From contig JASXTE010000005.1 in assembly GCA_030280995.1 (NCBI GenBank), positions 25,089,001-25,153,000 of the forward strand: a stretch of DNA of 64,000 bases, given 5' to 3'. The notes under the pieces were generated by a model. That model did no database searches. It saw only the letters and a program-made list of their open reading frames with translations, and was not told the DNA's origin. Below are positions 1,019 through 51,919 of this stretch, in pieces. Source of the DNA: Hemileia vastatrix (lineage: Eukaryota; Basidiomycota; Pucciniomycetes; Pucciniales; Zaghouaniaceae). Made by a program: the position numbers and the translations under genes. How positions within the stretch are numbered: the first letter of the stretch is position 1; the number at the start of each line of letters is the position of its first letter.

Positions 1019-3228
1019 TTCCTTCAGGTAATTCTGGAAGAGGAGATGAGACTGTGAGACCAGTAGAGGCTGGTAGTAGTAGATAAACTGCTCAATATTT
1101 TAATGTATCTAATCCTTTGGTTTTGATTGCTGCTTCAATGATAAATCCTGATATGGCTTTTATTGATGAGACACTTGAACCTGAGTTTTATTAGAATCTG
1201 TAAAGTTATTTTGTTTCCCTATTGAGAAATACTCCAGATGTAGCTAAAATTAATGATGAATATTTGAGGGATATTATTTCTAAACAAAATAATATAATGA
1301 ACATGCAATTAACTCAGAAATTTAATAGTTTGTTAGCTGAACAGGGTTATCAAGCGTTGAGGAGTGAATTACAGAGAGTTTCTGATGATTTGTTTCATTA
1401 CAAAGTAACTCATGAAAAGAAAGTTTCTTTATGGAAAAATATTGAGAATGATTTGTCTAAATTAAAAGATACTGTGTCCATCTGTTGCCAGGAGCAAGAG
1501 ATACATAATTTGAACTTCAAAAGATTGAGTGATCATTATTCATCTTTACAAAATAAGAACCAGTTATATTTTGCAACCATCAAAGAGAGTTTATCTATTA
1601 TTCCAAGAGTGAAGACTAGGCTAACAACCATTGAAGAGAAACTAAATTCATTGTTACATGATCAAAAGTTTTCTGACATTTCTTTGAGAGAACATGTGCT
1701 GCAGGATACCCCAATTTTACCTGTTCCTAGTTTATCCGAAGTAAAATTAGTTCCAGAAATACCTGTTGATATTACTTATTTTTTATCAAAAATTGATGAT
1801 GTACCTGGATCATCTACAAAAGGAATAAACAATGAAATTACTGCCCAATTGGAGAAGTTACAGCTCCTTCTCACTAAGAAACAAGCTTGTAATAAGGAGA
1901 CTACTTCAAATTAAAAGAATTGGCCAAAACTTGACCAATATACAAAATTTGATGGTGACTCTTCCTCTGATTGGAAGCAGTTCATTTGCAGGATTGATAA
2001 CTTAAAAAATTCTTACAAACTCCCAGATTAGGAAATTATGTCAAAATTAATTTCTTTATTTACCAATGTTGCCCTAATGTGGTATGAATCTTTTCTCTTG
2101 GATATAAGTGACTACTCATGGGAATATTTGAAAAGATTAATTAAAGCACAATTTGGTGGTTCCAAGTTTAGGATAGCTCAACAAAGGAAGTATGAAGAAA
2201 CTATATATAGCTCTTCTACTAAAAAACCCATTGAGTTCCTGATGAAATTTATTAAAATCTTGAGGGCTATGGACCCAAATATGGAGTTTGAATTATGGAA
2301 GGACAGAATCCTCTATAAATTACCTATGTCTTTGAGAGACTTGATAGTTTCTAGGACTGAGTTCTCAAGAGAACCTTCTTCTTTCATTAATACTTGTAAT
2401 GAGATCCTTCTAAACAAAAAGTATGATTCTAGAAAATTCATTCCTAGAACTCCATTAGAGAAACCCCCCAGTTACCAAAATAAACCTCTGGAAAAGGTTG
2501 GTAAACCTTCTTCCCCTGTTGCACCCAAAACTTATGCAACAAACACTTGCTTTAAATGCAAAAAGCCTTGGCAGAAAGGCTATTTTTGTGACAAGAAGAT
2601 TAATCTTGTTGAGAAGACAGAGGAATATGTTGATGACACAATAGCACTGGATGATACTTCAAGTGATTGTTCCAGCAATATTTCATATGAATGTCATCAG
2701 GAAATTTTGATGCTGGAAGAGGATATTCATTATTTGAATAATATTAATATTGAGAATAATGATTTATCTACAGTAGAGGATGCTGAGATCATGAAATACC
2801 TTGAGGAAAGTTCAATTATTATTTCCCTTGTCAAGGCACCAGTCTTGATCAATGGAAAAAACATTGAGGTGGTCATAGATTCTGGAGCTGGAGGAAGTGT
2901 AGTATCTGAAAAAGCACTTGCTTCAGCGGACCAAAATTATAAATCAAAACTTATGCCTATCATTTCTGAGAATTGGAGAGGTTATGGCTCTGTTTTGTCC
3001 CCCATTTGTAAATACAAAGTCACAGTATTTTTCAAATTTAACCATGGTTTTGTAAGAGCTATATGTGATTTTGTTGTCATGAAAAATGAAAACTTGAGTA
3101 GTTGTTTCATTGTTGGAATTGAAATTTTAACCAAATATGGCATAAAATTAGATCCTGCAAATCAATGCTTCACAATGGGGATGAATGTGAAAAAAAATTT
3201 AAAATTTCCTCCCCCAAGAAATTATTAA
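1019..3228 (+). pseudogene. Element A: coiled coil, capsid, zinc knuckle and protease region
   Basis: Second, longer ORF of the Ty3 element, broken by stops near 1084, 1192, 1912 and 2029. In order: a coiled-coil segment (1222-1900), a Gag capsid region (the KNWPKLDQY block at 1915 through about 2430, with ALMWYESFLLDISDYSWEYL), a zinc knuckle CFKCKKPWQKGYFC (about 2550-2590), an acidic linker, and an aspartic protease with the active-site motif DSGAGGS (about 2878-2898). The same order is seen in D and B, so capsid and protease belong to this second ORF rather than the first. A frameshift near 3200 leads into the RT region. Confidence 0.8.
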
Positions 3229-10903: not shown

Positions 10904-11133
10904 AAAAATAATATCCTTATATAAATTTAACTCCTATCACAATGATATTATATTTTAATTCTATAGAGTGTCAAACCAAATCCCCTCCATTATATAGAAA
11001 ACTCCATCTTGCATTGACCCCTTTAATAAACTTCCCTTAATTTATCACTGACCCTCCAATACAACCCACAGATCCATTAACCTTACTTCTATCCCTACTC
11101 ACAGACCTTTTTTACCCTTAGACACACAATAAC
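10904..11133 (-). mobile_element. LTR family S fragment, left piece, split by element B
   Basis: The reverse complement matches the middle of the family S LTR (for example GGTTTGAC, CTCTAGAATTAAA and GTCTGTGxGTA blocks of the 57164 copy). The match stops at 11133, where element B starts; the rest of the same LTR is found beyond the other end of B (51920-52377). The LTR therefore predates B. About 300 bp of the 3' part of the LTR are not found. Confidence 0.65.
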
Positions 11134-12635
11134 TGTCAGCCTGTATATCCCCAAGACTGAGTAAAAACTACTTATAAGTTATGTTAAACACATGAAATAT
11201 ACATGGGAATAATAAATGAGAGTACACAAACAGTATACATAAGTAAAATTATGATAATAGACAAAAAATGCCATTATAACACCTTATATACACACATATA
11301 TCCACCTTTTATAAGACTTATGTACTTAATATTAAGTTGAAATATGTTAGGGTAACCTTAAGAACATTCATTATAAGGCTGCATAATTTTTAAGTATACT
11401 TAAAGCTGTTATTTTCATTGTTTTATGCAAAAAACAAGAAATGTGCTTTATTTCACTTAAAAGTTGATTATATGTGCTATAAATTTAAGAATCTAAAAAA
11501 TGTGCTTTGACAGTTCAATTTGTCTCATTTAGGACTATTGATTTGGCTACTTAAATGAATAAAAATAATATTTTTCAAATTTGGTATTTTTTATGCCAGA
11601 AATGGCTTCTGTGTACTGGCCACATACTGCCTGCATTTTTCCCATGTGAATAGCTTCATTTTTAGCAAAGTTAGCTTTTTCACACTATAATTACCCCACA
11701 TTCTACGCCCACTGTGGGGAAACACGCTAAAATAGGGGAGAGGCGCTTATTTAGTGTCCTAGCTTAATTAATAATGCATTGACCCTGTTTATATGCACTA
11801 ATTTCATTAATAACCTCACTCTTGGCGTCTTATTTCATCACCACACTTAAATTTACCTAAATTTAGTCAAGGATTTACCCATGCAAGGGCCTGCCAAGGA
11901 CTGCATGTAGTTACCCCACATCTCATGTTCTTTTTTGAGTTTTTGGGTGGTTTATCAGTCAATATTGGTCATTTTTGAATGGGAATTTCACGTAGTATAA
12001 TTTCAGGATTAGCCCCTCCATTTCTACAGTTAATCCCCCTTATTATTAAGCTATTATTAACCTTAAAAAGTCTCCTTTAGTCTTTTATATTATTGTTTTA
12101 TACGCATATACTCTCTTTTTGTCTTTTTCTTTAATTTTGATGGATTTCCCTTATTATTACAGGATTTTGATGGTTGTTATTTGTCTAATTATGTCATGGG
12201 TTACTAAGGTTGTTGATGGGTAAGACTATTAGTTGTTTTGAGGCGTCATTAACTGTGTATTGGATGGTACATTAAGGAAATAATTGGGGAATTCAGTGTG
12301 TATAAAAGGAGGAGGATTTTGGGTCTTGTTTCTACATTCTTTATCATTTACAATTTACCAAATATAACCAAATAAATTACAATACATATCAATTAGTTTT
12401 TTTATAAGACTTTTTGAATAGTATCTGAATTATAAAATCTATTTTTCTACCAACTACAAATAGTGTAAGCCATATATAAAAATAGTGAGAATTATATTCC
12501 TGAGACCTTTAATTTTGATTATATTTTACTACTTATTGGATTAGTACTACAGTATTCATTCAGGACAATTAAATTCTTCCAGACAACTGACCATTAAAGC
12601 TAGTTCACGTCCTTGTACTTGACTTCAGCCTGACA
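11134..12635 (+). mobile_element. 5' LTR of element B
   Basis: Begins TGTCAGCCTGTATATCCCC and ends CTTCAGCCTGACA (inverted ends). Length 1502 bp; the 3' partner at 50414 is 1501 bp. A TATA box (TATAAAAGG) at 12301 lies about 1.17 kb into the LTR, giving a long U3. Confidence 0.93.
12301..12309 (+). promoter_or_regulatory. TATA box of element B 5' LTR
   Basis: TATAAAAGG, conserved in the 3' LTR at 51581. It sits upstream of the region expected to hold the R start. Confidence 0.55.
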
Positions 12636-12636
12636 A

Positions 12637-12651
12637 TTGGGGACCTTTCCT
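12637..12651 (+). other. Primer binding site of element B
   Basis: TTGGGGACCTTTCC directly follows the CA end of the 5' LTR with one spacer base. Element D has the near-identical CTGGGGACCTTTCC at the same place (minus strand, 49166-49180), so the priming tRNA is conserved between the two. TGG at its start matches a tRNA CCA end. I cannot name the tRNA. Confidence 0.65.
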
Positions 12652-13837: not shown

Positions 13838-14855
13838 ACCCAACTCCTTATAATCAATCATATCAACCTGACAATGAATTACTTATAGGTAATGAGATTG
13901 ATAAGGAAATATTGGATATGATTGATAATGATTTAAAAGATTATTCATTTGAAAAAAATATGTTAAACTTGTCTTTACATGAGGAAAATTTAAATAGTTT
14001 TATTGATCACCAGGATAATGCTATTAATATAAAATTGGAATCAAATGATGAGTCTTCTGAGTTGGACACAGGATAAATAGAATATTTTTTGAAAGAGAAT
14101 CCAATGGAATCAAAAATAATAAGTAAATTATTATTGAGAATTGAAAAATTGGAAGAGTTCTCAAAAGAGTCAAACAATAATACAGAAAATGTATTATTAC
14201 AGATAACACAATCATTGAGTACCACAGCCAATAAATTAAAAATTATTGAAAATTCAAATGATGAATTAATCAATGAGAATAAAAGATTGATTTCTGAGAT
14301 TAGAAAATTAGAAAGTAAATTAGACCATACTCAGAATGTTATGGCTACCATTGAGGGACATGTTAAAATCTCTTTTTCAAATGTAAATGATACTCTAACT
14401 CATGTACCTGTAATAAAGGATAGGTTACAAAGAGTAGAAATAGAAGTAGAAAACATATTGAAAGATACTGAAAAAATAAAAGATAACACTTCTTATGTGG
14501 CAAGAGTACCTGTTTTCATGAAACATGCAAATGAAACACCAATGATGGAACATGAACATAGTATCATGGGCTCTGAGAATAATAAGTCAGTAAAAGATGA
14601 AATAAATGATCATCTTTCTAAAGTAAGTGAATTACTCAATATTCCTCAGGTTAGGGAAGCAAAAACTAGCCAAAAGAACTGGCCTAAGTTAGATCAGTAC
14701 CCTTCTTTTGACGGGGATTCAAAATCTGATTGGCAACAATTCATACAAAGAATTGATAAATTAAAATTTTCATACAAATTACCTGATGAAGGAATTACTT
14801 CAAAGTTAATATCTTTATTTACGGATGTGGCCTTATTATGGTTTGAATCTGTATT
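13838..14855 (+). pseudogene. Element B ORF2, N-terminal part (coiled coil and start of capsid)
   Basis: Open from about 13838 apart from a TAA at 14074-14076. It encodes a long coiled coil (about 14090-14480) and the capsid start KNWPKLDQYPSFDGDSKSDWQQFIQRIDKL (14677-14765), ending at LLWFESV where the CACTA-like element enters. Homologous to the second ORF of D (36331-38400). The continuation is at 27150, in the same frame once the insertion and its ATT duplication are removed. Confidence 0.8.
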
Positions 14856-14898
14856 CACCACGGGAAATCTGGGGGTGAACTGCTAGCAGTTCCCTCTA
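14856..14898 (+). repeat. Left terminal inverted repeat of the giant CACTA-like element
   Basis: Contains the perfect palindrome GAACTGCTAGCAGTTC (14877-14892). Five transition differences from the right end; two of them pair across the palindrome. Confidence 0.9.
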
Positions 14899-14970
14899 TT
14901 TGAAACTATCAGGAATTTGTCAGGAAACTGTTGGGAAACCATCCTGAAACTGTCAGAAAGATGTTTTTAA
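14899..14970 (+). repeat. Subterminal repeats next to the left TIR
   Basis: At least four variants of a 9-12 bp motif around AAACTGT(C/T)(A/G)GG follow the TIR (for example GTCAGGAAACTGTTGGG). CACTA elements typically carry subterminal transposase-binding repeats; I infer that role by position only. Confidence 0.45.
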
Positions 14971-15240
14971 ATCTGATGAAAAAACATTGAAAAAATAAAC
15001 TGTCACAGATTGAATCCAGAACAATCCCTCCTTGAGCAGAGCTTAAGAACCACATTGAACATCAGTTAATCTCAGGTTTGCCAAAAGGTTGAACAACATC
15101 ACTTAGCATACCTTAATATTCAAATTTAAACTTGAATATATGTTGCGTGTATGATATAGATGCATATGCATTTGAATTTGCATGGTGGATACTTATTGCA
15201 TGCTAAAAATTGATGTGAAATGCCTATCCAAAGTGTATGC

Positions 15241-15600
15241 ATAATGACTATGAAGAATAAATATGCATAAAAAATATGCATAGTAATTATGCATAAAAAA
15301 TATGCATATTGAATATGCATAAAAATATGCATATTGAATATGCATTAAAAAATGCATATTGAATATGCACTAAAATTATGCATATTGAATATGCATTAAA
15401 AATATGCATATTGATTATGCAAAAAAAGGTGCATATATGTATATGAATAAAATATATTAATATGCATATAAATCTGTATAATGAATATGCATATGAATAT
15501 TCATAAATATGCATAATGATTGAAAAATGCAAAAAAATGATGCTTAACGAGTATATTTTATGCATAAATAGAAATATGCAATATGAATTCATATTTCATA
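15241..15600. repeat. ATGCAT-rich minisatellite
   Basis: About a dozen irregular 20-30 bp units built from ATGCATATT-G-AATATGCAT, itself an odd-length palindrome, separated by short A runs. Both strands read almost alike. Open frames across it are repeat artefacts rich in Met-His-Ile. Confidence 0.85.
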
Positions 15601-16189
15601 CAGATAACACTGGCAAACCATTTTGACCAAAACTCATACTAAATTTTCATTCTGGACTAAAGGTGTGAGGGAAGGAAGAAAAACAGTCCGACGTTAGAAA
15701 AATGCTACATGCACTCATTTTGTAGCAGAGCAAATGAGAAGTGCTGAATTATGGTTGGTGCCCATAATTTAGTATGATATCATAATTTTATTTAATTGTT
15801 TTCAATATTGAAAAGACTTTAGGTTGGTTGGTATGGATCTAGCTGTGCCAGGGTCTAATCTAATTATTTTAACAATTTCTTAATAATTAACGGGCTTTAA
15901 TACAAAAACAGGTTGTATTTTTTGTGGGATATTGGATATGATAAGGTCTTTTGTAAAAAAAACTTATATTGTTTAAAAATATTCCTGAATCAGATGTGGG
16001 ATAATCACTACAAAAAATTGTAGTACTGCGGGCAATAAAATATATGCACAAGCAGTAAAGAAAGGACCAAGTGAACCCTTTTTGTGCAGTGGGAATCATT
16101 AGAGTGGAATTGTGGATGAAAAATATAATTCATTATTACCATTTTATTTAATCAAAAAATTTATAATATTAAAAAGAACTATTGATTAA
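15601..16189. other. Unassigned AT-rich spacer inside the CACTA-like element
   Basis: Unique sequence between the ATGCAT repeat and the palindromic array. I see no gene, no repeat of the array unit and no RNA gene. Confidence 0.5.
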
Positions 16190-19100
16190 TTGGTATTTGA
16201 CCTTTGTGCCTCACTCATATTTATCATTTGATTGATTTTTGTCACCATTATGTTATTAATATTATAAGTATAGCAAAAACTCGTGTGCCAAATGCATACC
16301 GGGTGATGTTACACCTTTTATAATATTATTAAATAAAGGTAAAAAAATATGAAAATGATTTGTTTTACAAAAAATAAATTGATATCCAAAAGCAATATGA
16401 GGGATAAAAAGGTAAAATTAAAGAAATCAAATATGAAATAAAAAATTAAAGTGAAATTCCTCCCATCAAGAGCAAGTAGACATGATGGGGTGAACGCCCA
16501 CCAGTGGCACTAAACTTGGACTATAATTTCTTTTTTGTAAAAATAAAAAAAAATCCGCTGGAGCTTTACCAAAACTTCAGGATGACAATTTTGCCATATC
16601 AAACAACTTCTAGTGCAATTATTGACGAGAAATTCATTTTCATTGCAATAGAGAGAATTGATCACATCAGACTGCATGTGACCAAAAGTGTCCAGCACAA
16701 GTTCGGCCAAACTTGTGCTGGACACTTTTATGATGGAGGTTAGCTAGGGTTGAATTTTTCTTCAGTTCATCTGGTATTTCTTATAAACATGTCCACTGGT
16801 ATTTGATCTTTGTGCCTCACTCATATTTATCATTTGATTGATTTTTTGTCACCATTATGTTTTAATATTATAAATATAGCAAAAACTCATGTGCCCAACG
16901 CATACCGGGTGATGTTACACCTTTTATAATATTATTAAATAAAGGTAAAAAAATATGAAAATGATTTGTTTTACAAAAAATAAATTGATATACAAAATCA
17001 ATATGAGGGATAAAAAGGTAAAATTAATCTCAAAGAGATCAATTATGAAAAACAAAATACTAGTAAAATTCTTGCTCTCAAGAGCCAGTAGAAGTGTTGA
17101 AACAAATGGGAGCCATCAGGGCTAAATTGTAATAAATGATCTTTTTTTTAAAGATAAAAAATTATACACCTGAGGTTGGGAAGAACAACAGGTGGATGAT
17201 TCAGCTAAACAAAACTACTTGTAGTGAAGTTTAATAAAAAAATGTTTTTTCTTGCCATATAGAGAATTGATCCCATCTGACTGCACGTGACTAAAAGTGT
17301 CCAGCACAAGTTCGGCCAAACTTGTGCTGGACACTTTTATGATGGAGAGTAGCTTGGGTGGAAATTTTCTTCAGTTCCTTCATCTTTTATTTCTCATAAA
17401 CATGTCTACTGGTATTTGATCAGTCTGTATCTTTCATATTTATCATCTGATTAATATTTTATCACCATTATATTATTAATGTTATTAGTACAGCAAAAAC
17501 TTGTGTGCCAAATGCATACCATGTGAAGTTATACCTTCAATAATTTTTTAAAATAGACGTAAATAAATATGGAAAGGATTAGTTTTACAAAAATTAAATA
17601 GAAATTTAAAAGTAAAAAGAGGAATAAAAGAGTAAAATAAAAGTCAAAGAGTTCAAATATGAAAAAAATACTGGTAAAATTCCTGCTATCAAGAGCCAGT
17701 AGAGGTGTTAAAGGAAATGGGAGCCATCAGGGCTTAATTGTAATAAGTGACCTTTTCTTTAAAGATAAAAAATTATACACCTGATATTGGGGAGAACAGC
17801 AGGTGGATGATTCAGCTAAACCAAACTACTTCTAGTGAAATTTGATAAAAAAAATTTTTTGTTGCCATACAGAGAATTGATCCCATCTGACTGCACATGA
17901 CCAAAAGTGTCCAGCACAAGTTCAGCTGAACTTGTGCTGGACACTTCTATGATGAAGAGCGGCTGGGGTAGAATTTTTTTTCAGTTCATCTGGTATTTCT
18001 TACAAAAATGTCTACTGGTATTTTATCTTTGTGCCTCACTCATACATATTGTTTGATTAATTTTTTGTCTTAATTATATTATTAATTATATAAGTATAGC
18101 AAAAAATTGTGTGCCAAATGCATACTGAGTGATGTTACACCTTTTATAATATTATTAAAAAAATGTATAATAAATATTAAAATAATTTATTTTAAAAATT
18201 ATTAATTGATATCCAAAAGCAATATGAGGAATAAAAAATTAAGTTAAAGAGATCAAATATGAAAAACGAACTCCAAATATTATTGCTAATATCAAAGGCC
18301 AGTAGAGATGTTGAAGCAACTGAGAGCCATCAGGGATAAATTTTACTAAATTGATTGTTTTTTAAAGATAAAAAATTGTGTACCTGTGGTTTGGATGAAC
18401 TCTAGGTGGATAATTCAGCTATATCAAACTACATCTAGTGAAGTTTCTTATCAAATAATTTTTTTCATTGCCATAGAGAGAATTGATCCCATCTGACTGC
18501 ACCTGAACAAAAGTGTCCAGCACAAGTTCGGCCGAACTTGTGCTGGACACTTTTTTGATGGTGAGTATCTAGGGTGCAGCTCTTCTTCAGTGCAACTGGT
18601 ATTTTTTCAAAACATATCCACTGGTATTTGATCTTTCTGTTTTATTAATATTTTATCATAACACATACCAGGTGATGTTACACCTTTTATAATATTATTA
18701 AATAAAGGTAAAAAAATATGAAAATGATTTGTTTTACAAAAAATAAATTGATATCCAAAAGCAATATGAGGGATAAAAAGGTAAAATTAAAGGGATCAAA
18801 TATGAATTAAAAAATTAAAGTGAAATTCCTCCTATCAAGAGCAAGTAGACATGATGGGGTGAACGCCCACCAGTGGCACTAAACTTGGACTATAATTTCT
18901 TTTTTGTAAAAATAAAAAAAATCCACTGGAGCTTTACCAAAACTTCAGGATGACAATTTTGCCATATCAAACAACTTCTAGTGCAATTATTGAAGAAAAA
19001 TTCATTTTCATTGCAATAGAGAGAATTGATCACATCAGACTGCATGTGACCAAAAGTGTCCAGCACAAGTTCGGCCGAACTTGTGCTGGACACTTTTATG

Positions 19101-22100
19101 ATGGAGGTTAGCTAGGGTAGAATTTTTCTTCAGTTCATCTGGTATTTCTTATAAACATGTCCACTGGTATTTGATCTTTGTGCCTCACTCATATTTATCA
19201 TTTGATTGATTTTTTGTCACCATTATGTTTTAATATTATAAGTATAGCAAAAACTCGTGTGCCCAACACATACTGGGTGATGTTACACCATTTATAATAT
19301 TATTAAATAAAGGTAAAAAAATATGAAAATGATTTGTTTTACAAAAAATAAATTGATATACAAAAGCAATATGAGGGATAAAAAGGTAAAATTAAAGGAA
19401 TCAAATACGAAATAAAAAATTAAAATAAAATTACTGCCATCAAGAGCAAGTTGACATGTTGGGGCAAATGTCCACCAGTGAGGCTAAACTTGGACTATAA
19501 TTGCTTTTTTGAAAAACAAAAAATTGCCAATCTGAGGTTTAAAAAAACTTCAGCAGAACCATTTAGCCATATCAAACAACTTCTAGTTCAATGATTGAGA
19601 GAGAATTGATCACACCAGACTGCATGTGACAAAAAGTGTCCAGCACAAGTTTGGCCGAACTTGTGCTGGACACATTTATGATGGAGAGTAGCTAGGGTAG
19701 AATTTTTCTTCAGTTAATCTGGTATTTCTTATAAACATGTCCATTGGTACTTGATCTTTGTGCCTCACTCATATATATCATTTGATTAATTTATTGTCAC
19801 CATTATATTATTAATATTATAAGTATAGCAAAAACTCGTGTGCCCAACGCATACCGGGTGATGTTACACCTTTTATAATATTATTAAATAAAGGTAAAAA
19901 AATATGAAAATGATTTGTTTTACAAAAGATAAATTGATATACAAAAGCAATATGAGGGATAAAAAGGTAAAATTAATCTCAAAGAGATCAATTATGAAAA
20001 ACAAAATACTAGTAAAATTCTTGCTTACAAGAGCCAGTAGAAGTGTTGAAACAAATGGGTGCCATCAGGGCTAAATTGTAATAAGTGAAATTTTTTTTAA
20101 ACATAAAAAATTATACACCTGAGGTTGGGAAGAACAACAGGTGGATGATTCAGCTAAACAAAACTACTTGTAGTGAAGTTTAATAAAAAAATGTTTTTTT
20201 GTTGCCATATAGAGAATTGATCCCATCTGACTGCACGTGACTAATAGTGTCCAGCACAAGTTCGGCTGAACTTGTGCTGGAAACTTCTATGATGGAGAGC
20301 GGCTGGGGTAGAATTTTTCTTCAGTTCATCTGGTATTTCTTACAAACATGTCTACTGGTATTTTATCTTTGTGCCTCACTCATACATATTGTTTGATTAA
20401 TTTTTTGTCTTAATTATATTATTAATTATATAAGTATAGCAAAAAATTGTGTGCCAAATGCATACTGAGTGATGTTACACCTTTTATAATATTATTAAAA
20501 AAATGTATAAAAATATTATAATAATTTATTTTAAAAATTATTAATTGATATCCAAAAGCAATATGAGGAATAAAAAATTAAGTTAAATGGATCAAATATG
20601 AAAAAAAACTCCAAGTATTATTGCTAATATCAAAGGCCAGTAGAGATGTTGAAGCAAATGAGAGCCATCAGGGATGAATTGTACTAAATTGATTGTTTTT
20701 TAAAGATAAAAAATTGTGTACCTGTGGTTTGGATGAACTCTAGGTGGATAATTCAGCTATATCAAACTACATCTAGTGAAGTTTCTTATCAAATAATTTT
20801 TTTCATTGCCATAGAGAGAATTGATCCCATCTGACTGCACCTGACCAAAATTGTCCAGCACAAGTTCGGCCGAACTTGTGCTAGACACTTTTATGATAGA
20901 GAGTAGCTAGGCTGCAGGTCTTCTTCAGCGCAACTGTTATTTTTTTAAAACATGTCAAATAGTATTTGATCTTTCTGTTTTATTCATATTTTATTATCTG
21001 ATTAATTTTTTGTCATTAGAATATTATTAATTTTATTAGTATAGAAAAAACTTGTGCGCCAAATGCATGCCATGTTATATTACGCCTTTTATAATATTAT
21101 TAAAAAATGTTAAAAAAATATGAAAATGATTTTTTTTCCAAAATTATAAATTAATATCCAAATGTAACATGAGTGATAAAAAAGTAAAGTAAAAGAGATC
21201 AAATATGAAAAAGAAAAATTCAAGGAAAATTCCTGCCTTCAAGAGCCAGTAGAGGTGTTGAAACAAATGGGTGCCATCAGGGCTAAATTTGACAAAATTT
21301 AATTTTTTTTAAAGATAAAGAATTTTTCACCTGAGATTTGGAAAAACTCAAGGTGGATAATTCAGCCATACTAAACTACTTCTAATGTAATTATTTAGCA
21401 TTTTTTTTAATTTAATTTCCACAGAGAGAATTGATCCCATCTTACTGCACCTGAACAAAAGTGTCCAGCACAAGTTCGGCCAAACTTGTGCTGGACACTT
21501 TTATGATGGAGAGTAGCTAGGTTGGAAGTGTTTCTCAGTACATCAGTTTTTTGTTCTTCACATTTCTATTGGGTTTTTAACTTTTTTTTATCATTAATAT
21601 TTAACTTAAAATTAATTTTTTGTCACCATATATATTATTAATGTTTCTAGTATAGCAAAAACCTGCATGCCAAATGCAAAATTGGTGATGTTACAACTTT
21701 AATAATATTATTATATAAAGTTAAAAAAATAGGAATATGTTTAGTTTTTAAAAAAATAAATTGATATTTAAAATTAAAAAGAGTAATATAAAAGTAAAAT
21801 GAAAATAAATGGGATAAAATACGAAATAAAAAATACAAGTAAAATTTTTACTATCAAGAGCCAGAAGTGGTGTTGGGACAGTTGGGGACCCCTAGGTCAA
21901 GACTTGGTCTAAACTTACTTTTATTTATAGCTAACAAATTTTGAACTGAGGTTTGGAAAGACATCCAGGGGACAATTTTACAATATTAAACATTCTTTAC
22001 TTCAATAATTGAGTGAAATATCATTTTTTATTTCCATAGAGAGAATTTATCTCATATGACTTCATGCAACCAAAAGTGTCCAGCACAAGTTCGGCCGAAC

Positions 22101-25100
22101 TTGTGCTGGACACTTTTATAATTGAGAGTAGGCATACAGCAAATCTTCTTAAACTCAAAAGGGATTTCTTATAAACATTTCCACTGGAATTTGATCTTTC
22201 TGTGTCATTTAAATTTACCATTTGATTAATTTTTTGTCATCATTATATTATTAAGGTTATTACTATAGTAATAACTTGTGTGAAAAATGCATACCAGGTG
22301 GTGTTCCACCTTTAATCATATATTATTAAATAAAAGTATAAGAGTATGAAAATTATTTATTTTAAAAATTAAAAATTGATATCCAAAGTAATATGAGCAA
22401 TAAAAAAGTAAAATAAAAGGGATAAAATAAGAAAAAAAAATCTAAGGAAAATTCCCACTATCAATAACAAGTAGAAGTGTTAGATCAAATGTGCACCACC
22501 AGGGCTAAACTTGCACTATATTTTCTTTTTTGTTAAACCAAAGAAAGTGTCCTGATGAGTTTTGAAAAATTATCAGGAGGACATTTTGGAAATATCAAAC
22601 TACTTATTGTGCAATGATTGAGCAAAATGTCATTTTCATTTCCATAGAGTAAATTTATCCCATCTGACTGCATGCAACCAAAAGTGTCCAGCACAAGTTT
22701 GGCCAAACTTATGCTGGACACTTTTATGATGGTGAGTATCTAGGGTGCAGGTCTTCTTCAGTTCATCAGGTATTCCTTATAAACAAATCCACTCGTATAT
22801 GATCTTTCTGTGTCATTCATATTTATCATTTGATTCATTGTTTTTCACCATTATAATATTAATGTTATTAGTATTGAAAAGACTTGTAAGCCAAATGCAT
22901 ACTGGGAGATGCTACATCTTTCATAATCTTATTAAATAAAAGTAAAAAAAATATGAAAAGTATTAGTTTTACAATAAATAAATTGATATTTGAAAGCAAA
23001 AACAGGAATAAAAAAGTAAAATAAAAGTGATTAAATATGAAATTAAACATTCAAATAAAATTTCTGCCATCAAAGATAATTTGAGTTTTCAGACCAAATT
23101 TGCACCACCAGTTCTAGATTTGGAATATGTTTTCTTTTTTTAAAAATTAATAAAAGTGTCCACCTGAGGTATTACAAAAAATCAGGAGGATAGTATAGCA
23201 GTATAAAGCTACTTCTTGTGCAATGATTGAGCAAAAATTCATTTTAACTTCCATTGAGTAAATTTATCCCATCTGACTGCATGCAACCAAAATTGTCCAG
23301 CACAAGCTCAGCTGAAATTGTGCTGGACACTTTTATGATGGAGAGTAGCTAGAGTGCAAGTCTTTTTCACTTAATCTTATATTCATTTTAAAAATGTCTA
23401 TGGGTATTTGATCTTTCTGTGTCATCCATATTTATTATTTTATTATTTTTTAGTCACCATTATATTATTAATGTTTTTAGTATAGCAAAAACATGTGTAA
23501 TGAATGTACACTGGATGACTTTACAACTTTAATAATATAATATAATAAATGTAAAAAAATGTGAAAGTTATCAGTTTTACCAAAACAAAATTGATATTCA
23601 AAAGCTAAAGGATAAATAAAAGGGTAAGATCAAAATTAAAGAGATCAAACATGAAATAAAGATATTAAGTATAATTTCTGCTATCATGAGCCAGTAGAGG
23701 CTTCAGAAAAAATGGGCACCATCATAGATTAACATGGATCAAATTTACTTTTTACCAAAGGAAAAAATTGTCTACCTTAGGTTTGGACAAACTTCCAGGG
23801 GACAATTTGTCTATATAAAACTACTTTCAGTGCAATGATGGAGTGATAATTTAGTCTCATTTCCATAAAAAGAATTGATTGCGTCTGATGGCATGCAACC
23901 AAAAGTGTCCAGCACAAGTTTGGCCAAACTTGTGCTGGACACTTTTATCATGAATAGTAGCCAGGGTGCAAGTCATTTTTAATCATCTGAAATTTCTTAT
24001 AAACATTTCCACTGTTATTAAATCTTTGTGCCTCACTCATATTTATCAATTGATTAATTTTTTGTCACCATTATATTATTAATATTATCAGTATAGCAAA
24101 AACTTGTGTGCCAAATGAATACTGGGTGATGTTACACCTTTTATAATATTATTAAATAAAGGTAAAAAAATATGAAAATGATTTATTTTACAAAAAATAA
24201 ACTTCTATCCAAAAGCAATATGAGAGGAATAAAGTAAAATAAAAGAAATCAAAGATGAAAATTAAAATCCAAGTTAAATTCCTGCCATAAACAGAAAAAA
24301 GAGATGTTGAATCAAATTAGCACAATCAGGGCTAAACTTGCACTAAATTTTCTTTTTTGTAAAAATAAAAAAAAAATCCACTTGAGCTTTACCAAAACTT
24401 CAGCATGAAAATTTTGCCATATCAAACTACTTCTAGTGTAATTTTATATCAAAAATTTATCTTCATTTCCATAGAGAGAATTGCTCCCATCTGACTGCAC
24501 CTGACCATAAGTGTCCAGCACAGGTTTGGCCAAACTTGTGCTGGACACTTTTATGATGGAGAGTAGCTAGGGTAGAATTTTTCTTCAGTTCATCTAGTAT
24601 TTCTTACAAACATGTCTACTGGTATTTTATATTTGTTCCTCACTCATTAATATCATTTGATTAATTTTTGGTTGCCATTATATTATTAATTTTATAAGTA
24701 TAGAAAAAACTCATTTGCCAAATGCATACCAGGTGATGTTATGCCATTTATAATATTATTAAATAAATGTATAAAAATATGAAAATAGTTTATTTTAAAA
24801 ATTATTAATTTATATCCAAAAGCAATATTAGGAATAAAAAATTAAGTTAAAGGGATCAAATATGAAAAAAGAAATCCAAGTAATATTCCTACTATCAAAG
24901 GCCAGTAGAGGTTTTGAAGCAAATGAGAGCCATCAGGGATAAATTGTACTAAATTGACTATTTTTTAAAGATAAAAAATTGTGCACCTGTGGTTTGGATG
25001 AAATCTAGGTAGAAAAATTGCCTATGTAAAACTACTTCTGGTGAAGTTTTTTATCAAATTATGTTTTTCATTGCCATAGCGAGAATTGATCTCATATGAC

Positions 25101-26570
25101 TACAACTGACCAAAAGTGTCCAGCACAAGTTCGGCCGAACTTGTGCTGGACACTTTTTTGATGGTGAGTATCTAGGGTGCAGCTCTTCTTCAGTGCAACT
25201 GGTATTTTTTCAAAACATATCCACTGGTATTTGATCTTTCTGTTTTATTAATATTTTATCATTTGATCAATTTTTTTTTACCAGTATATTATTATTTTTA
25301 TTAGTATAGCGAAAAAACATGTGCCAAATGCTTACAGGGTGATGTTAAACCTTTAATAATTTTATTAAATACAGGTAAAAAATTATGAAAATGATTTGTT
25401 TTACATAAAATTATTTGATATCTAAAAGAAAAAAGGGATAAAAAGAAATAGGTTGAATAATAGGGATTTTATATGAAATTCAAAATTCAAGCTGAATGCC
25501 TACTTTCAAGGCTCAGAAGAGGTGTTGGATAAAATGGGCATCATCTGGAATAAAATTTTACTTAATTTGATTTTTTGAAAAAATAAATGAAGTTTTCAAC
25601 TGATTTTTTTTCAATATTTAGTTGGACACTTTATCTATATCAAATTACTTCTAGTACCATGATTGACCAAATTAAATCCTCATTTCCATATGCAGAATTG
25701 ATCCCTTATGGCTGGACCAGGCCAAAGGTGTCAACCACAAGTTTGAGAACTCTTCTGGTGGACACTTTTATGATGGACAGTAGTAGGGTGCAAGTCTTCT
25801 TTAGTTAATCTAGTATTCCTCATAAACATTTCCAACTTATTTTTGGCCAAAAATCAGGTGGAAAGTTTTTCCATATAGAATTACTTCTAATGCCATGATT
25901 GACTAAAAATTGATTCTCATTGCCATATAGAGAGTTGATCCCATATGAATGGATCTGGAAAAAGTGTCACCACAATTTTTGATAAACTTAAGTTTGAAAA
26001 TTTTATGATGGAAAGTAATTGCAAGTCTTCTTCATTTCATTAAGTAATCCTCATAAAAATTTCCACCTGTATTTTGGCCAAACTTCAGGTGGACACTTTG
26101 GCCATATTAAATTAATTCTAGTTCCATGTTGATAAAAAACTGATACTTATTGCCATATATAGATATTAAGCCCATCAGACTGTGCCTTTCCAAAATTGTC
26201 TACCTGAATTATGGCTAAACCTCAGTTGGACACTTTTATGATGCAGAGTAGCTAGGGAAAAAGTATTCTTCAGTTAATTTGGTATTCATAATAAATTTAT
26301 CCTCCTGAACTTTATCCTAACTTGAGGTGGACAATTTCAGAAAGCACCAGTTAGTCACTATCCATCAAAAAAAGTGTTCACCAAAATTTTGGCTAAACTT
26401 GTGGTGGACCCCTTTGATCAGCCACAGTCAGATGAGATCAACTCTTTAGATGGAAATGACGATGATGTTTTAGTCAATCATGGAAATAGAAGTAGTGTGA
26501 TGTGGCCAAATTACCCCCCTGAAGGTCAGACAAACCTCAGAAGGACACTTTTTAGCAGAAAGTAACTGAG
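16190..26570. repeat. Tandem array of about 15 units of about 608 bp, each with a 46-bp palindrome
   Basis: Palindrome starts: 16684, 17293, 17903, 18509, 19052, 19632, 20243, 20847, 21457, 22072, 22680, 23289, 23901, 24507, 25112; spacing is 604-615 bp except two deleted units (543 and 580). Each arm is AAAAGTGTCCAGCACAAGTT and the centre is CGGCCG, TGGCCA or CAGCTG. The copies at 18509, 19052, 22072, 23901 and 25112 are perfect over 46 bp. Flanks share CCCATCTGACTGCA just before, and GATGGAGAGTAGCTAGGGT just after; further out, a block with GCATACCGGGTGATGTTACACC. To the right (25723, about 25959, 26194, 26369) the units shrink to 175-235 bp and the palindrome decays. No coding potential. 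Palindromes are better conserved than the rest of the unit. Confidence 0.93.
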
Positions 26571-27103
26571 AAAAATCCATTTATCAGAAGGAAAATTTTT
26601 TATTGGATAGATGCCAAGGTTTCATACTTGTCTATTATGGTCAGTATTAATTTTGAAAGTGTCTGTCCAAGCAATTTCATTGCCCATCATGACTCATTTC
26701 GTTTTAAATGTTTCAAACTGCGTGATACAGTATTAAGGTGTCACATAGTATAATTAAGTTCTATTAAGTGCCCTCCTATGATGCCTAAATTTATAATTTA
26801 ATATCTTACATAATAATTTTTTTATATAAATTCATCAGTATTTTATTTTATTATCAAATTTAATAGAGCAAGTATCCTGAATTATTATATATGCATAAGC
26901 TTAGGTTAGATCAATTTGTGCTCAATTTGTGCTCATCAGAGGACCAAAATCAAGTTCTGGAGGATCAACTTGTGCATAATTTGGAATCAGTTGATATTCT
27001 GTCTATAATCAATCTGAGAATAAATGTAAATCTAACTCTAATTTACTTATGTTTATAAAGTATTCATAAACCTGGCATATTTAAGGGACACTCTAAATTT
27101 CAA
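26571..27103. other. Right subterminal region of the CACTA-like element
   Basis: Unique AT-rich DNA with a few echoes of the array arm (CAATTTGTGCTC twice, CAACTTGTGC, 26915-26980). No gene seen. Confidence 0.45.
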
Positions 27104-27146
27104 GAGAGGGGATTGCTAGCAATTCACCCCTAGATTTCCCATGGTG
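27104..27146 (-). repeat. Right terminal inverted repeat of the giant CACTA-like element
   Basis: Reverse complement of the left end with a few transitions. Holds the palindrome ATTGCTAGCAAT (27112-27123), whose arms differ from the left copy in a paired way (C...G replaced by T...A). Confidence 0.9.
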
Positions 27147-27149
27147 ATT

Positions 27150-28604
27150 GAGTGAGGGAATTAATTACTCCTGGAATGAATGGAAGGCACTAATTAAAAG
27201 GCAGTTTGGTGGCCCATAATTTAATATCACTCAACAAAGATTGTATGAAAAGGCCAGATATAATCCAAATGCTGGAGATAAACCTATGGTATTTTTAATG
27301 AATTTAATAAAAATCATGAAAGCCATGGATCCAAAAATGGATTAAGAAGAGTGGAAAGAAAAGATAATATACAAATTGCCTATATCAGTTAGAGACATTA
27401 TTGTAGCTAGAACTGAAATCATCAGAGATACCTCTGGGTTCATTAATATATGCAATGAGATATTATTAAACCACAAATATGAAACCAAGTATAAAAATTA
27501 CAGACAAATTGTTGACGTGGTAAAACCTACTACAAGTGAATTACCAGTGGAGAAGAAAAAACCTTCAGCTCCCCTTGTCTGCAAAAGACAAGAGAATAAA
27601 ACTTGTTATAAATGTAATGAACCTTGGGTTAAGGGTCACACGTGTAAGAAAAGAATAAATGTTATTGAAACCTCACAGAATTCTGAACCTAGTAATCATG
27701 AAGATGAGAATGTGGAATCTAGTGAGGATTGCAAAAGTGACATATCTTACAGTGATGATGAAAATGAGATATTTGTATTAGAACAGGATAAAATGTTCCT
27801 GAATGATGCTATACCTCATACAGACACATCTTTAACTTCCATTGAGGAAGCTGAAATAATTAAAGATGTAACTCATGATACTTACAAAATAACACCTATC
27901 AGAGCACCTGTTATTATATGTGGAAAAGAAATGAATGCCATTCTTGACACTGGGGCTGCAGGTAGTGTAGTTTCTATTAATACATTAATGAAACTTGACA
28001 GTAAGAATAAGGAAAAACTAGAACCTTTTCAAACAAAGAACTGGAGAGGTTTTGGTTCAGTATTAAATCCAATTGGCAAATACAAAACTGCTGTGTTCTT
28101 TAAATATAATATTGGATATGTTAGAGCAGTATGTGAATTTGTAGTAATGGATAATAAAAATTGTAGTGATTGGTTTTTTATTGGTAATAACTTATTGACA
28201 AAATTTGTCATTAAACTAGATCCTGCAAACAGTTGCTTCACTATAGGTATGAATGGTAAGAGAAAATTTAAAATATGTTCTGAAAACTCAGTATATACCA
28301 TTTCTCATAGAGATGAACAACTGCAAGTTGGAAGAACTACCACTGAAATGGTTGAATTGGATAATGAAATCCAAAAGGCTTCTTTCAGTCCTCAACTCTC
28401 AAAAATTGAAGAAGAAAATATTTTGAGATTGATTAAATCATATCCTATGGCATTTGCTCATGGTTCAAATGAACTAGGATTGGTCAAAGACCATGAGATG
28501 AAAATCTCTTTAAGTTGTGATTGGGATAATATTCCTGGCAGCTTGAAAAAGAAACCTTACCCAGCTTCTCCTGAAAAAGGAAAGATATTGAAGACAACAT
28601 AAAA
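27150..28604 (+). pseudogene. Element B ORF2, middle part: capsid, zinc knuckle, protease
   Basis: Continuation of 13838-14855. Capsid C-part (NYSWNEWKALIKRQFGG) carries a stop at 27343-27345. A zinc knuckle CYKCNEPWVKGHTC lies at about 27604-27645 and the aspartic protease motif DTGAAGS at about 27949-27969. The frame is lost near 28575 (a one-base indel in the A-rich stretch), ending at TAA 28600-28602. In D the same region is a single open frame, so these are inactivating mutations. Confidence 0.88.
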
Positions 28605-31442
28605 ATGTTGTTAGAAATGGGTATTGTTGAAAAAGTAGACACAGCACCTAAGTATTGTGTTATTTCACCAGTATTAATCTCTTATGAAAAAGATAAGGCA
28701 AGATTATGCGGTGATTATAGAGCTCTGAATACATACACAGTAGATGATATTTACCCTCTACCAAGGATAGCTTCTATCCATGCTACTTTACAAGGAGCAA
28801 AATATATTTCCTGTCTGGATGGAAACAAGGGTTACCGCCAGATTCCTGTGGAAAGAAATTCTCAAAATTACTTATTAATAACCACACATATGGGTATATA
28901 TAAGTATGTGAGAATGCCATTTGGCCCAAAGAATGCGCCTTCAGTCTTCCAAAAATTGATGGATAGTGTTTTTCATCTGGAAATGGTTGAAAGATGGCTA
29001 TTGGTCTATATTGATGACATCATAGTGTTTTCAAAAACATATGATGAACATTTAAATCACCTGAAAAGAGTCTTTCTAAGGATGGATGAAATTAATATGA
29101 CAATTGCATTAAAGAAATGTAAATTTGGATTTCAATCCTTGAAAGTACTTGAACATGTTGTATCTGGATTACAAATTTGTGTTTACCAGAATAAGGTGGC
29201 AGCAATTAAAAACATAGGTATACCAAAAAATGTAAAAGAGGTTCAAAGTTTTTTGGGTATGTGTGGATATTATAGACAATATATAAAAAACTACCAATCC
29301 ATTGCAGCTCCTTTAACAACATTAATCAGGAAAAATGAGGCTTTCATTTGGAATAATGAAAGACAACATGCCTTTAATAAATTAAAGGAATGCTTAATGT
29401 CAGCTCCAATATTGGGACTGCCAGATTTCACCCTACCTTTTATCTTGTACACTGATGCAAGCTTCATAGGTTTAGGTGCTGCTTTACAGCAGAAACAGAT
29501 AATAAATGGAAAATTATCTGAAGTAGTTATCTGTTATATATCCAGAACCTTAAGAAAAACAGAATTAAGGTATGGTGCCACACAGCTAGAATGTTTAGTC
29601 ATGGTGTGGGCTTTAAAGAAACTTCATTACTATCTGGAAGACCAGAAGTTTGAACTTATAACAGATTGCAGTGCAGTAAAATCATTACTAAACATGAAAA
29701 CCCCTAATAGGCACATGTTTAGATGGCAACTAGCTGTACAAGAGTACAGAGGAAGAATGACAATCACTCATAGAGCAGGAACATTGCATTCTAAAGTGGA
29801 TTTATTATCCAGAAGTCCTTTGCCAAATGATGCTGACAACCCAGCTTATGTACCTGAAAATGAGGTTATACATATATTTGGGATTTATATAGTGGACTTA
29901 GAAGAAGAATTTATGCAAACTATATTGGAAAATTACTCATCTGATAAAGATTTGTCTAAACTATCTACCATTCTAAATGATCCAACTAATGCCTCCATGA
30001 GTGCATTGATTAAAACCTTACCTCCAAAGTATAGAAATGCGTTGGAAAAAGGTAAACTGTCAATTGAAGATGGATATATATATTACAGGAAAAAGCTAAG
30101 TTATGTAATATTAATACCACCTTCTATGAAAGAGTTAATTTTAAGTACTTGTCATGATGACATCTTAGCTGGTCATTTTGATTTAAACAAAACATTAACT
30201 GGAGTTAAAAACACAGCCTGGTGGATAAACATGAAAGAAGATGTACAAAAATACACTGAAACATGTGACTCTTGTCAGAAATCTAAAAGATTAACTGGGA
30301 AGAGAGTTGGGTTGTTACAACAAATAGAGCAGCCAAAATCTCCATGGGAAATAATAAACATGGATTTTGTAACTGGCTTGCCATTAGCAGGAAAAGAAAG
30401 ATTCAATTCTTGCTGGGTAATAGTAGATAGATTAACAAAAATGTGTAAATTTATCCCTACCCATAAAGAGGTATCTGCAAAAGACTTGGCATTACTATGT
30501 TGGACTCAGATGATGAATACTGCTGGGTTTCCTAAAGCCATAATCTCTGACAGAGACCCTAAATTTACTTCAGAGTTCTGGACATCTTTGATGGAAGTAT
30601 CAGGTTGTCAATTGAAATTGTCTACAGTACACCATCCACAAACTGATGGGCTGGCTGAGAGAATGATACAAACTCTAGAAGACATGATCAGAAGATATTG
30701 TGCCTTTGGATTAGAATACAAAGACAATGAGAAATTCACACATGAATGGGTAACATTTATTCCTGGCCTTGAATTTGCTTATAACAGCACAACTCATTCT
30801 GTAACAGAGAAGAAACCATTTGGACTCTAGCTGGGATACGCACCAAATACCCCAGTAAATCATTTAAATAAGCTACCAAGGTTGGATATACACCCTGGTA
30901 CTAAATCCTTTATTCATATGCAACAAATGTGTAGGAAGCATGCAGAAGAATTCATCCAAAAAGCATTTGAATATGAAAAGAAAAGGTGGAACAAATCTCA
31001 TAAAGAATTTTAATTCAAAAAGGGAGATGAAGTCCTTATATCAACACTACATTTTAACTTACAAGTTAATGTTAAATTAAAGGATCCCTTTGTAGGACCT
31101 TTTGTAGTAAGCAAAATGGTAGGTAATAATGCAGTGGAAGTCATATTATATGCTCCATATGATAGGAAACATCCAGTCTTCCCTATCTCATTATTGAAAC
31201 CTTACCATGCAAATGATCCTGACTTCTTTCCAAAAAGAAGGGGAAGGCCTAAAAAGCAACCTGAAGAAATTGTGGAAAAAGAAGAGATTGAAAAAATACT
31301 CAAGAAAAGGATCCTTACTAAAGAAAAAGGAACTGAGTATTTACTAAGATTTAAAGGGAAATCAAATGAATTTGATAAATGGATACCTGAAAAAGAAATT
31401 TCTAATTTATCCACCCTTCTTAAAAAATTGAAACAGAAATAA
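28605..31442 (+). pseudogene. Element B pol: RT, RNase H, integrase, chromodomain-like tail
   Basis: RT blocks YTVDDIYPLPRI (about 28737), MPFGPKNAPSVFQ (28915) and the catalytic YIDDIIVFS (29008). RNase H LYTDASFIGLGAAL (29447). Integrase: HHCC module at about 30145-30300, MDFVTGLPLAGKE, SDRDPKFTSEFW (30546) and the D-35-E glutamate in GLAERMIQ (about 30650). Tail: FPKRRGRPKK (AT-hook-like, 31225-31255), then KGTEYLLRFKGKSNEFDKWIPEKEI, which resembles a chromodomain. A TAG at 30828-30830 replaces a conserved Trp and a TAA at 31011 breaks the tail. Otherwise the domains are complete, so inactivation is recent relative to A and C. Confidence 0.93.
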
Positions 31443-31539
31443 ATTTCTGTTCAACCAGCTGAGAGGTTAAAAAACCAGTACTCATAATATTCTATTATGT
31501 TTTATTTCTTTAAAGTATAATCTTTAATGCTACAGAATT

Positions 31540-32676
31540 TGTTGGTCAGTTGTCTAGAAGAAGGTAAGAAAAATAGGAGAAAAAGGAGGAGAGAAGGAGG
31601 AGGACAAGGGAAAATAAAGGAAATAATTTATAATAATATATTTAATTTTATTTAAGAGGGAAAACAACGGTGAGCAACTTTGAGAGATGACAAAAGCTTA
31701 GTATTTATTAATAATAATATTATTCAATGTAAGGGTTCTGCGCGGCAAACACTTTTAATTACTATCAGACTTAAAGCACCTTTAATTTGTTATATAGACT
31801 TTTAATTAGAATTGTATTACTAATAAAAAAATATAAACATAATAAAATAGTTATTTAATTTGTTGAGTGTTTAATAAGTGATGAGGCTACAGGGGATTAT
31901 CCAAGGCCCTTTTATAGGCAATGGGTCCTCTGAAGCGCTACTATATTTGTAAATACAATGATTAGAATAGAATAAAACAAATATATCAAAGAGTAAATGA
32001 AACATAACAATGTAGAGAAAAACATGAAACAATTAATTAAAACCCCAATTAAGAATCCAATTTTCCCGCCATTAATTCCCAAATCAGTAAATGAAAATAG
32101 TGAATAACTAAACAAGATTGGAACATAGGAACTATGAGAAAAATAATTCCAAACAGATGGTACAGTCTGATTAAAAGATATTTTAAGTGAAACAAAAAAT
32201 ACTTTGATGCAACAAAACACGTAATTAATCTCAATTTAGTATAAATTAATTTATTTGTTTTTGCTAACACAATTAAGGGTCAAAAGAAGTGTCATTAATT
32301 ATTTTTTAGTATTATATGAGAGGTGTTATTTAATATATAAATTTAAATAATTAATTTAAATATATTATAAGTCAATTTTACACTTATAATTATAATATAT
32401 GTTTTTCAATTAATTAAATATAAATTTATAATTATTAAATACATAAAAATGCGCCCTTATTTGTAGAATATATTATATTATGTTCAATTTAACTGTATAT
32501 AAAAATTTATATAACCAATAAATTTAATGTAACACTTGTATATAATAAAATACTTATATAATTTTATTATGCAATAAAATATTAAGTTATATTCATTAAA
32601 TACAATTCTTACACACTCTTTCAGGTTTTATAAGTTACATATCATTTACTGGACTCCTGGAATAGCCTGGCTGACA
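31540..32676 (-). mobile_element. 3' LTR of element D
   Basis: On the minus strand it begins TGTCAGCCAGGCTATTCC and ends CAACTGACCAACA. TATA box CTATAAAA on the minus strand at 31910-31917. Differs from the 5' LTR by a handful of substitutions and a small indel near the GA-rich stretch. Confidence 0.93.
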
Positions 32677-38760: not shown

Positions 38761-39856
38761 TATGGTAAGGTAAACTCTTACAGTCGCCTTGCTGTAAGCA
38801 GAATCCGGAGGAGATATGTGGATTTAGCTGAAAACCCCGTCCTTCCAATAAAAATAACAAAATGGGAATTCTAAATCACTAAGCTAACCAATCTACTTGG
38901 ATCTGATTGATGAAAATAATGAAACTCCAAAATAATTAACGCTTATTGAGATTTAATGAAAGTAGCTGTTGAGGAAAGAAATACTGATAACAACAATTAA
39001 GGTGTACCAGTGAAAGATCTGAAAAGATTGACTTTTATGTTTTTATAATGATTTGAATTTTTATGAGACAGCAATAATCAAGTCCCAGCGACGAAGACCT
39101 TTCTAAGGATACCCTGTTTTGAAGTGTGATTTAAATTGTTGAATAGTATTTCTAAAATGTTAAGTATATAAAAAATATAAAGTTATAAGGGTATTACAAA
39201 TTTATTTAATTTGTTGAGTAATAAAAAATGAGACCGTGGTGGTTAATGATTAAGCTGTATGATGTATCCCCCTTCTCAATTTCGAGTTTGAGAAGCGCTT
39301 AAGTATTCCTAGTCACATGCCTAAGTTTTCCCCTCCAGAGCTCTTCCAGAGTCAATCCGGAGCCCGTACGGAGTCCGTCCGGACTTCCGGACTCAATTAG
39401 AACCTTAAAACTATAATAAAAAAATCTAGAAAAATTACACATAATAGAGCTACTTCCCCTTTACATACCAAACTAATTTTCGTAGTCTGCGCAGCTCTAA
39501 TTACCCCGTGAAAATTCATCAAAGTTAAGTAATTTTTGAAAACGTAAATATTTCTATAAAACTTTAAAATTCATTTAAAAATATAAGAAAAATAGTAAAA
39601 ATTCTGGGAAAATTTCCCAAGGTTCTTGAGTGACTTGACTTAATACTTATAAATTTTTCAGACCGTAAAAAATAAGTTTTCTCCGTAAAATAAATTGTTT
39701 TTGTGTAGGCATTCGCTCGTGACCAATTTCTTCATATTTTAAACTCCAATAAATTAAATAAAACCCTTTTATATAAAAAATAATAACACCAATCTTGCAT
39801 GCCGTGATAACTCCATTTACATATTTAGGTGCTGTACTAAACTTTAGGCTACCACA
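38761..39856 (-). mobile_element. 3' LTR of element E
   Basis: Minus strand begins TGTGGTAGCCTAAAG and ends CCTTACCATA (ends TGTGGTA/TACCATA, so TG...TA rather than TG...CA). 1096 bp. Carries a short GC-rich stretch with CCGTACGG motifs (39356-39395) that is expanded in the 5' LTR. Confidence 0.92.
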
Positions 39857-45529: not shown

Positions 45530-45621
45530 TCATAATAATTTGAATCCTGAATAAATTAAAGACATAACGATAAAAGAAAATTTCAGCCCAGTTTAGGTAG
45601 TTTATCCTCATTTCGGAGGAA

Positions 45622-46827: not shown

Positions 46828-46864
46828 CCCAAAACATAAGAAAAGCGTTAACAACCATTAAAAT

Positions 46865-47000: not shown

Positions 47001-47002
47001 CT

Positions 47003-50327: not shown

Positions 50328-50332
50328 GAATT

Positions 50333-51914: not shown

Positions 51915-51919
51915 ATAAC

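Follow-up and report, generated by a model that had tools for sequence, protein, structure and literature searches.

The region analyzed here is a 64-kb window of the Hemileia vastatrix genome (64,000 nucleotides, the whole stretch of DNA under study), which is AT-rich (32.4% GC) and includes a number of LTR retroelements. In rust fungi, much of the genome size is due to LTR retrotransposons and TIR transposons, and CACTA elements have been reported in rusts (PMC12210899). A pol-type ORF at 28575-30830 has 1,278 relatives at an E value of ≤0.001; among the 120 of these 1,278 that were listed, the named ones come nearly all from Austropuccinia psidii, with two from Puccinia striiformis and one from a bacterial MAG, and the rust relatives share 40 to 53% identity with the ORF. 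A Pseudomonas amygdali MAG protein that matches the rust-type reverse transcriptase likely reflects contamination of that MAG.

The gag region of one LTR retroelement is interrupted by an element of 12,291 bp (14856-27146). Its left terminal inverted repeat (14856-14905, + strand) starts CACCACGGGAAATC, and the right one (27098-27146, − strand) matches it with 43 of 50 aligned columns identical (E = 2e-9); the left end opens CACCACGGG at 14856 and the right end closes CCATGGTG at 27146. A second alignment of the ends, spanning 51 columns including one flanking base, contains six mismatches and one gap, with all six mismatches being transitions as judged by eye. A 16-bp perfect palindrome lies within the left repeat (14877-14892). 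Flank sequence and the empty-site join define a target site duplication, ATT, at 14853-14855 and 27147-27149. When the flanks are joined with a single ATT, the gag frame of the host retrotransposon is uninterrupted at the junction, and two related gag copies in the window, at 1540-3207 (+ strand) and 37973-36318 (− strand), span the junction gap-free in alignment. Taken together, the ends, the restored gag frame, and the gapless gag copies are direct evidence for one insertion, 14856-27146. We therefore confirm the preliminary description in its view of a single mobile TIR unit, as one inserted unit, with inverted ends starting CACCA, a perfect 3-bp duplication, and a restored retrotransposon frame; the end length of 43 bp given there was too short, as the repeat runs to about 50 bp. 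Beyond the junction, the host gag frame has two internal stop codons, so the host retrotransposon is not intact. Dating the insertion by the host LTRs was abandoned, since the LTR pieces on the two sides seem to represent separate portions of a single LTR, leaving no divergence to read.

Nothing resembling a gene was detected within the element. All 23 stop-to-stop ORFs of at least 60 amino acids that overlap it were scanned against Pfam, with matches reported up to an E value of 1 for 22 ORFs and up to 0.001 for one, and none of the 23 has a match at the cutoff, Transposase_21 (tnp2) included. A zinc-ribbon profile covering 14 residues of an ORF in an ATGCAT microsatellite (E = 0.0054; 16.9 bits against a cutoff of 32) was taken as chance. 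The microsatellite itself, with a period of about 13/26, occupies 15236-15517 in the left part of the element; ATGCAT occurs 18 times in 14856-16000 and 18 times in the remaining window. For the repeat unit described below, the longest ORF of the consensus has 89 codons, compared with 111 to 126 for the five longest among 100 shuffles, and is nothing unusual; 13 of 174 gaps in the unit alignment are divisible by three, and a search of the unit ORF against a 5.8-billion-protein collection returned no candidate with three words in common. Across the 64-kb window, we observe no Rfam match at the gathering score, no ARAGORN match, and no transposase or autonomous partner.

Most of the element is repetitive, with repeat homology extending from 16191 to 26553 (10,363 bp, 84% of 12,291 bp). 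At its center is an array of 15 units (16390-25427, + strand), 543 to 615 bp in length and 69 to 97% identical in pairwise comparisons; 11 of the 15 units measure 604 to 611 bp, and the other four 543, 580, 612, and 615 bp. Because the units are only 69 to 97% identical to each other, the array is unlikely to be an assembly artifact. Similarity among them follows a higher-order pattern (u1 and u5, 97%; u3 and u7, 92%; u4 and u8, 92%; u4 and u15, 90%), which is what unequal exchange would be expected to leave. A partial leading unit, consisting of spacer sequence, precedes the array (16191-16389, + strand; 95% identity to the unit consensus). Rightward, the units break up into monomers of 231 to 236 bp, so that each 609-bp unit consists of a core of some 250 bp and a spacer of some 355 bp. 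The decayed tail (25593-26337, + strand; period of 231) consists of such monomers with palindrome remnants and without the 355-bp spacer. Palindromes with a score of at least 8 begin at 25583, 25724, 25829, and 26056 in this tail, the last being a better-kept type A palindrome (26056-26099) recognized by palindrome scan and homology, and an inverted monomer copy follows (26357-26553, − strand; 74.6% identity to the consensus). Elsewhere in the 64-kb window, the unit has no match at an E value of ≤1e-4 except a 27-bp stretch at 35028.

Each unit carries one near-perfect 46-bp palindrome, referred to as type B, with the consensus AAAAGTGTCCAGCACAAGTTCGGCCGAACTTGTGCTGGACACTTTT. The first lies at 16684-16729 and the 15th and last near-perfect one at 25112-25157, with the others starting at 17293, 17903, 18509, 19052, 19632, 20243, 20847, 21457, 22072, 22680, 23289, 23901, and 24507. 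At a score of at least 13, the element contains 17 palindromes, comprising these 15 and 2 in the microsatellite, compared with none in each of 20 dinucleotide shuffles and none in the window outside the element; under laxer mismatch scoring, weaker palindromes also appear outside the element, at 1.2 per kb and with a best score of 14. These results bear out the earlier account of a gene-less interior, without a transposase-like ORF, that holds a tandem array of about 10 kb rich in palindromes, and add to it the right tail with its 231-bp monomers and inverted copy.

Conservation within the units was assessed by parsimony steps, counted on a unit tree built from columns other than the tested ones; these counts are approximate since units exchange sequence, and they refer to one array only. 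The arms of palindrome B accumulated 12 steps over 42 columns (0.29 per column), compared with 1.60 per column in other columns and 1.74 in base-matched, non-CpG columns, and 0 of 20,000 draws were as low in either null. In bins of six columns, the arm cores show 0 to 0.33 steps, rising to 0.67 where the arms end on the outside and to 1.83 and 1.5 in the first bins beyond the palindrome; the flanks upstream of B are mildly conserved, at about 1.0 to 1.3 steps per column with one bin at 0.33. The B arms are constrained in sequence relative to the rest of the unit, and these almost frozen palindrome arms are the new result here.

Of 630 arm positions, 13 depart from the consensus, spread over 7 of the 15 units. 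None of the 13 changes is compensated, and one (in u14) leaves a G-U wobble. Sequence rather than pairing appears to be kept in B, since no arm change has a complementary partner. The center of B, CGGCCG, varies only at the four bases of its two CpGs, with 15 of 30 CpGs kept. The observed/expected ratio of CpG is 0.19 inside the element and 0.27 outside, with an excess of TpG/CpA across the window, and this window-wide depletion may be taken as a sign of cytosine methylation or a related process. Methylation decay of the CpGs at the center of B is suggested because the variable bases are CpGs in a CpG-poor element. Among the 10 distinct B palindromes, 94.3% of cells pair and two pairs show double changes, both in the center; the observed pairing is reached by 11 of 500 shuffles and the observed covariation by 4 of 500. 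Some selection for palindrome symmetry is possible, via these two center pairs.

A second palindrome in each unit, type A, provides a comparison. It shows 2.09 steps per column against 1.66 in base-matched columns (reached by 56 of 5,000 draws) and beats all 200 shuffles in just 3 of the 15 units. Palindrome A is unconstrained and, in most units, decayed, which makes it a weak control for hairpin-driven mechanisms. We considered A as an inverted duplicate of B and rejected this: the cores score 52 in inverted and 42 in direct orientation, scores that stand without a null, and flank similarity is within the shuffled range. At most a putative likeness of half-sites is claimed for A and B.

Motifs resembling the half-site of B recur near the right end of the element, where motif search and matrix scans identified AGCACAAATT (26913 and 26924) and TGCACAAGTT (26967) within 26913-26976 (− strand). 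Exact AGCACAARTT occurs in the window in the array palindromes and otherwise only at 26913 and 26924, with 26967 a one-mismatch site, and the left subterminal region has no occurrence with up to one mismatch. In a matrix scan with the 10-base block AGCACAAGTT, the right-end sites rank 5 to 7 outside the array, two of the three being one tandem duplication. A scan with all 16 bases of the half-site places no site of either subterminal region in the top 14 outside the array; the top-ranking site (9037) lies in unrelated sequence and was the only one outside the array among the 35 matches from which the matrix was made. With the block AAGTGTCCAG, the right end is absent from the best 14 and one weak left site (15185) is present. 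Between the near-perfect palindromes and the element ends there is 1.8 kb on the left and 2.0 kb on the right, and the motifs are at most a hint of a link between palindromes and ends. Maize En/Spm has a 12-bp motif; a resemblance to it was rejected, as the best match to the 23-bp half-site ending at TTTT is 6 of 12 positions, equalled by 15,310 of 20,000 shuffles.

We tentatively favor, at somewhat below an even chance, the reading that this is a non-autonomous CACTA-like TIR transposon in which palindromic repeats of subterminal type have expanded into a satellite-like array that is probably protein bound. A transposase of an autonomous relative would have cut and pasted the element by its ends. 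The interior may have begun as a short subterminal-type repeat, in which a palindrome pair about 120 to 135 bp apart formed the 231-bp monomer. This pair would then have been joined to the spacer of about 355 bp, and repeated unequal exchange of pair plus spacer would have produced a 9-kb array with units of approximately 609 bp, as the higher-order pattern suggests. The 46-bp palindromes would most likely be paired mirror-image putative binding sites of a sequence-specific protein, probably an accessory DNA-binding protein (TnpA-like) of the element family, whose putative binding would help bring the ends together or which would be competed for. That the array of 15 putative dyad sites, in place of any gene, is itself the selected trait on which the element evolves, drawing the accessory protein of its autonomous relative as a sponge or mobilization booster, we regard as rather doubtful; were the binder a host protein, the element would amount to a mobile set of chromatin sites of the host.

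The conservation of B is open to other readings. Palindromes are recombinogenic, and it could be mutational in origin, with hairpin-forming palindromes starting breaks and gene conversion that homogenize them, or with the arms correcting each other. The higher-order exchange evident in the array and the mildly conserved flanks upstream of B, where local gene conversion is possible, are compatible with this, and palindrome A, besides lacking conservation, is decayed and may have lost the ability to fold well. We nevertheless consider such an origin improbable, as it is the center, nearest to where a hairpin tip would form, that varies, 7 of the 15 units retain arm mismatches without correction, and divergence is already high in the bins directly outside the palindrome. 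The palindromes might instead act at the RNA level, as hairpins that give rise to small RNAs, and not at the DNA level; as RNA, the consensus folds into a 21-pair stem (−34.9 kcal/mol), and 7 of the 15 type B palindromes fold as single-stranded DNA with z scores from −5.1 to −10.2. Any near-perfect palindrome folds, however, and given the lack of compensated arm changes and of an Rfam match in the window at the gathering score, we hold this to be the least probable reading. The conservation of B appears to be better explained by sequence-specific binding than by selection for a hairpin, because homogenization should include the center and a constraint on structure only would permit compensated arm changes.

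A protein-bound palindrome could also have come from outside the element, and the main rival to amplification in place is the capture, by a TIR element, of a pre-existing genomic satellite whose palindrome binds a chromosomal protein of the host. The palindrome is frozen as the rest of the unit drifts, the near-perfect copies sit in the middle of the element, and a precedent is offered by a Chenopodium quinoa CACTA array, for which a related satellite in C. sosnowskyi is unlinked to CACTA (PMC8978399). Such capture is nonetheless unlikely in our estimate, given a tail whose gradual passage into 231-bp monomers and an inverted copy has the appearance of growth in place, the weak motif sharing with the right subterminal region, and the rarity of unit matches elsewhere in the 64 kb. 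Even less support can be given to a concatemer of MITE-like elements, in which every 609-bp unit would be one such element and the palindromes would mark where the ends of two neighbors abut: cutting a unit at the center of its palindrome does yield 23-bp inverted ends, and satellites derived from MITEs are known (PMC9659126), but the palindrome centers are without spacer or duplicated bases, each unit has a second palindrome inside it, and the 64-kb window contains no solo unit elsewhere, making this highly improbable. Compatible with any of these readings, another DNA transposon superfamily with a 3-bp duplication might move the element, as CACCA ends misfit the CACT(A/G) of CACTA elements (PMC4423477). 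Of the five superfamilies compared, however, CACTA is best suited by a 3-bp duplication outside TAA/TTA, a CAC start, and a long repeat-rich interior (PMC4423477), and we consider a different superfamily a minority possibility. End motifs do not settle the superfamily, because they vary within it: in CACTA relatives of animals, the ends are CCC and the duplications 2 bp long (PMC1636069).

With regard to classification, the CACTA-like features noted in the preliminary description stand, namely, a 3-bp duplication and ends with a CAC start. The duplication, ATT/ATT with the frame restored, was seen for a single copy. CACTA ends begin CACT(A/G) according to the rice table of PMC4423477, and CACTA membership is unproven because both ends here are CACCA. 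As for direct and inverted subterminal repeats, palindromes are abundant, the near-perfect ones being located 1.8 to 2.0 kb inside, with weak half-site motifs at the right end only. We do not file the element as a CACTA member, though we think that it works like one. MITEs are short non-coding TIR elements of about 400 bp (PMC9659126), compared with 12,291 bp here, and PIF/Harbinger elements have a TAA/TTA target and GG(G/C)CC ends (PMC4423477), compared with an ATT target and CACCA ends here. As weak tests of wider occurrence, the end pattern was searched in a prokaryote contig collection and the palindrome pattern in viral contigs, each with zero matches.

Two statements of the preliminary description require revision. 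Non-autonomous CACTA derivatives were said to be usually short or to carry gene fragments, which finds no support in lettuce, where 1,714 candidate CACTA insertions with one family's ends average 6.8 kb and LsC1 is a 3.9-kb non-autonomous CACTA element; the same source states that most CACTA transposons carry neither ORF (PMC8195511). The statement that no described class fits the element is likewise unsupported, as there are precedents in soybean Tgmt* (PMC2613891), in Chenopodium (PMC8978399), and in mobile satellites, an idea already in print for Helentrons in oyster (PMC7492417) and for MITEs (PMC9659126); repeat arrays of CACTA elements are also the subject of general statements (PMC4423477). 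Tgmt* resembles the present element in its 3-bp duplication, inverted ends, palindrome-forming repeats, and large size: its 28 asymmetrically distributed subterminal repeats are able to form 14 palindromes, 2 on the left and 12 on the right, and are built on a 17-bp motif that occurs in both direct and inverted orientation and that a TnpA-like protein was proposed to bind (PMC2613891). Tgmt* differs in having CACTA ends, a transposase gene, and repeats of the 17-bp motif that stay within 159 and 732 bp of its ends (PMC2613891). The element described here, in contrast, is gene-less, and its 46-bp palindromes are central and about 609 bp apart over 9 kb.

Helentrons move by another mechanism. 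Cg_HINE of oyster, of Helentron type (PMC7492417), and Tetris of Drosophila virilis, of foldback type (PMC4079207), are like the present element in being non-autonomous and in spreading tandem repeats, and have other ends. The CACTA-like element of Chenopodium quinoa shares a kilobase-size satellite array within the element and towards one side (5.55 kb, with 32.5 copies of a 171-bp monomer), but, unlike the element here, it carries Transposase_21, and the word palindrome is absent from the available text (PMC8978399). Lettuce LsC1-type elements are likewise long and without a transposase and have AT-rich 3-bp duplications; the available text describes no palindrome array for them and lacks the word palindrome (PMC8195511). 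Styx of Zymoseptoria was dropped as a comparison since it encodes a transposase (PMC10853768). The titles and abstracts listed in the literature survey included no rust element of this type, although such a survey does not prove absence. The present element enlarges a known kind rather than founding a new one and is unusual in scale.

What distinguishes this TIR element, composed mostly of a satellite-like array, is that its units combine a constrained 46-bp palindrome with a second one that is unconstrained and decayed. This contrast between B and A makes it testable which transposon or host protein reads the palindrome and whether the number of sites affects mobility. The element sequence is also an exact probe for its family and for an autonomous partner.

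The window contains further traces of retroelement activity. Direct repeats at 38761-39856 and 47002-48163 match with 99.7% identity over 623 bp and 98.6% over 499 bp; they flank retroelement ORFs at 43160-46857 and are probably a recent LTR pair. Pieces at 31539-32676, 49180-50327, 11131-12637, and 50411-51916 match at 97.6% and 94.0%, and the interval 49180-51916 may be a solo LTR of the family hosting the element. Finally, the retroelement ORF at 43160-45529 contains a 45-bp tandem repeat, a multiple of three, at 44797-45252.
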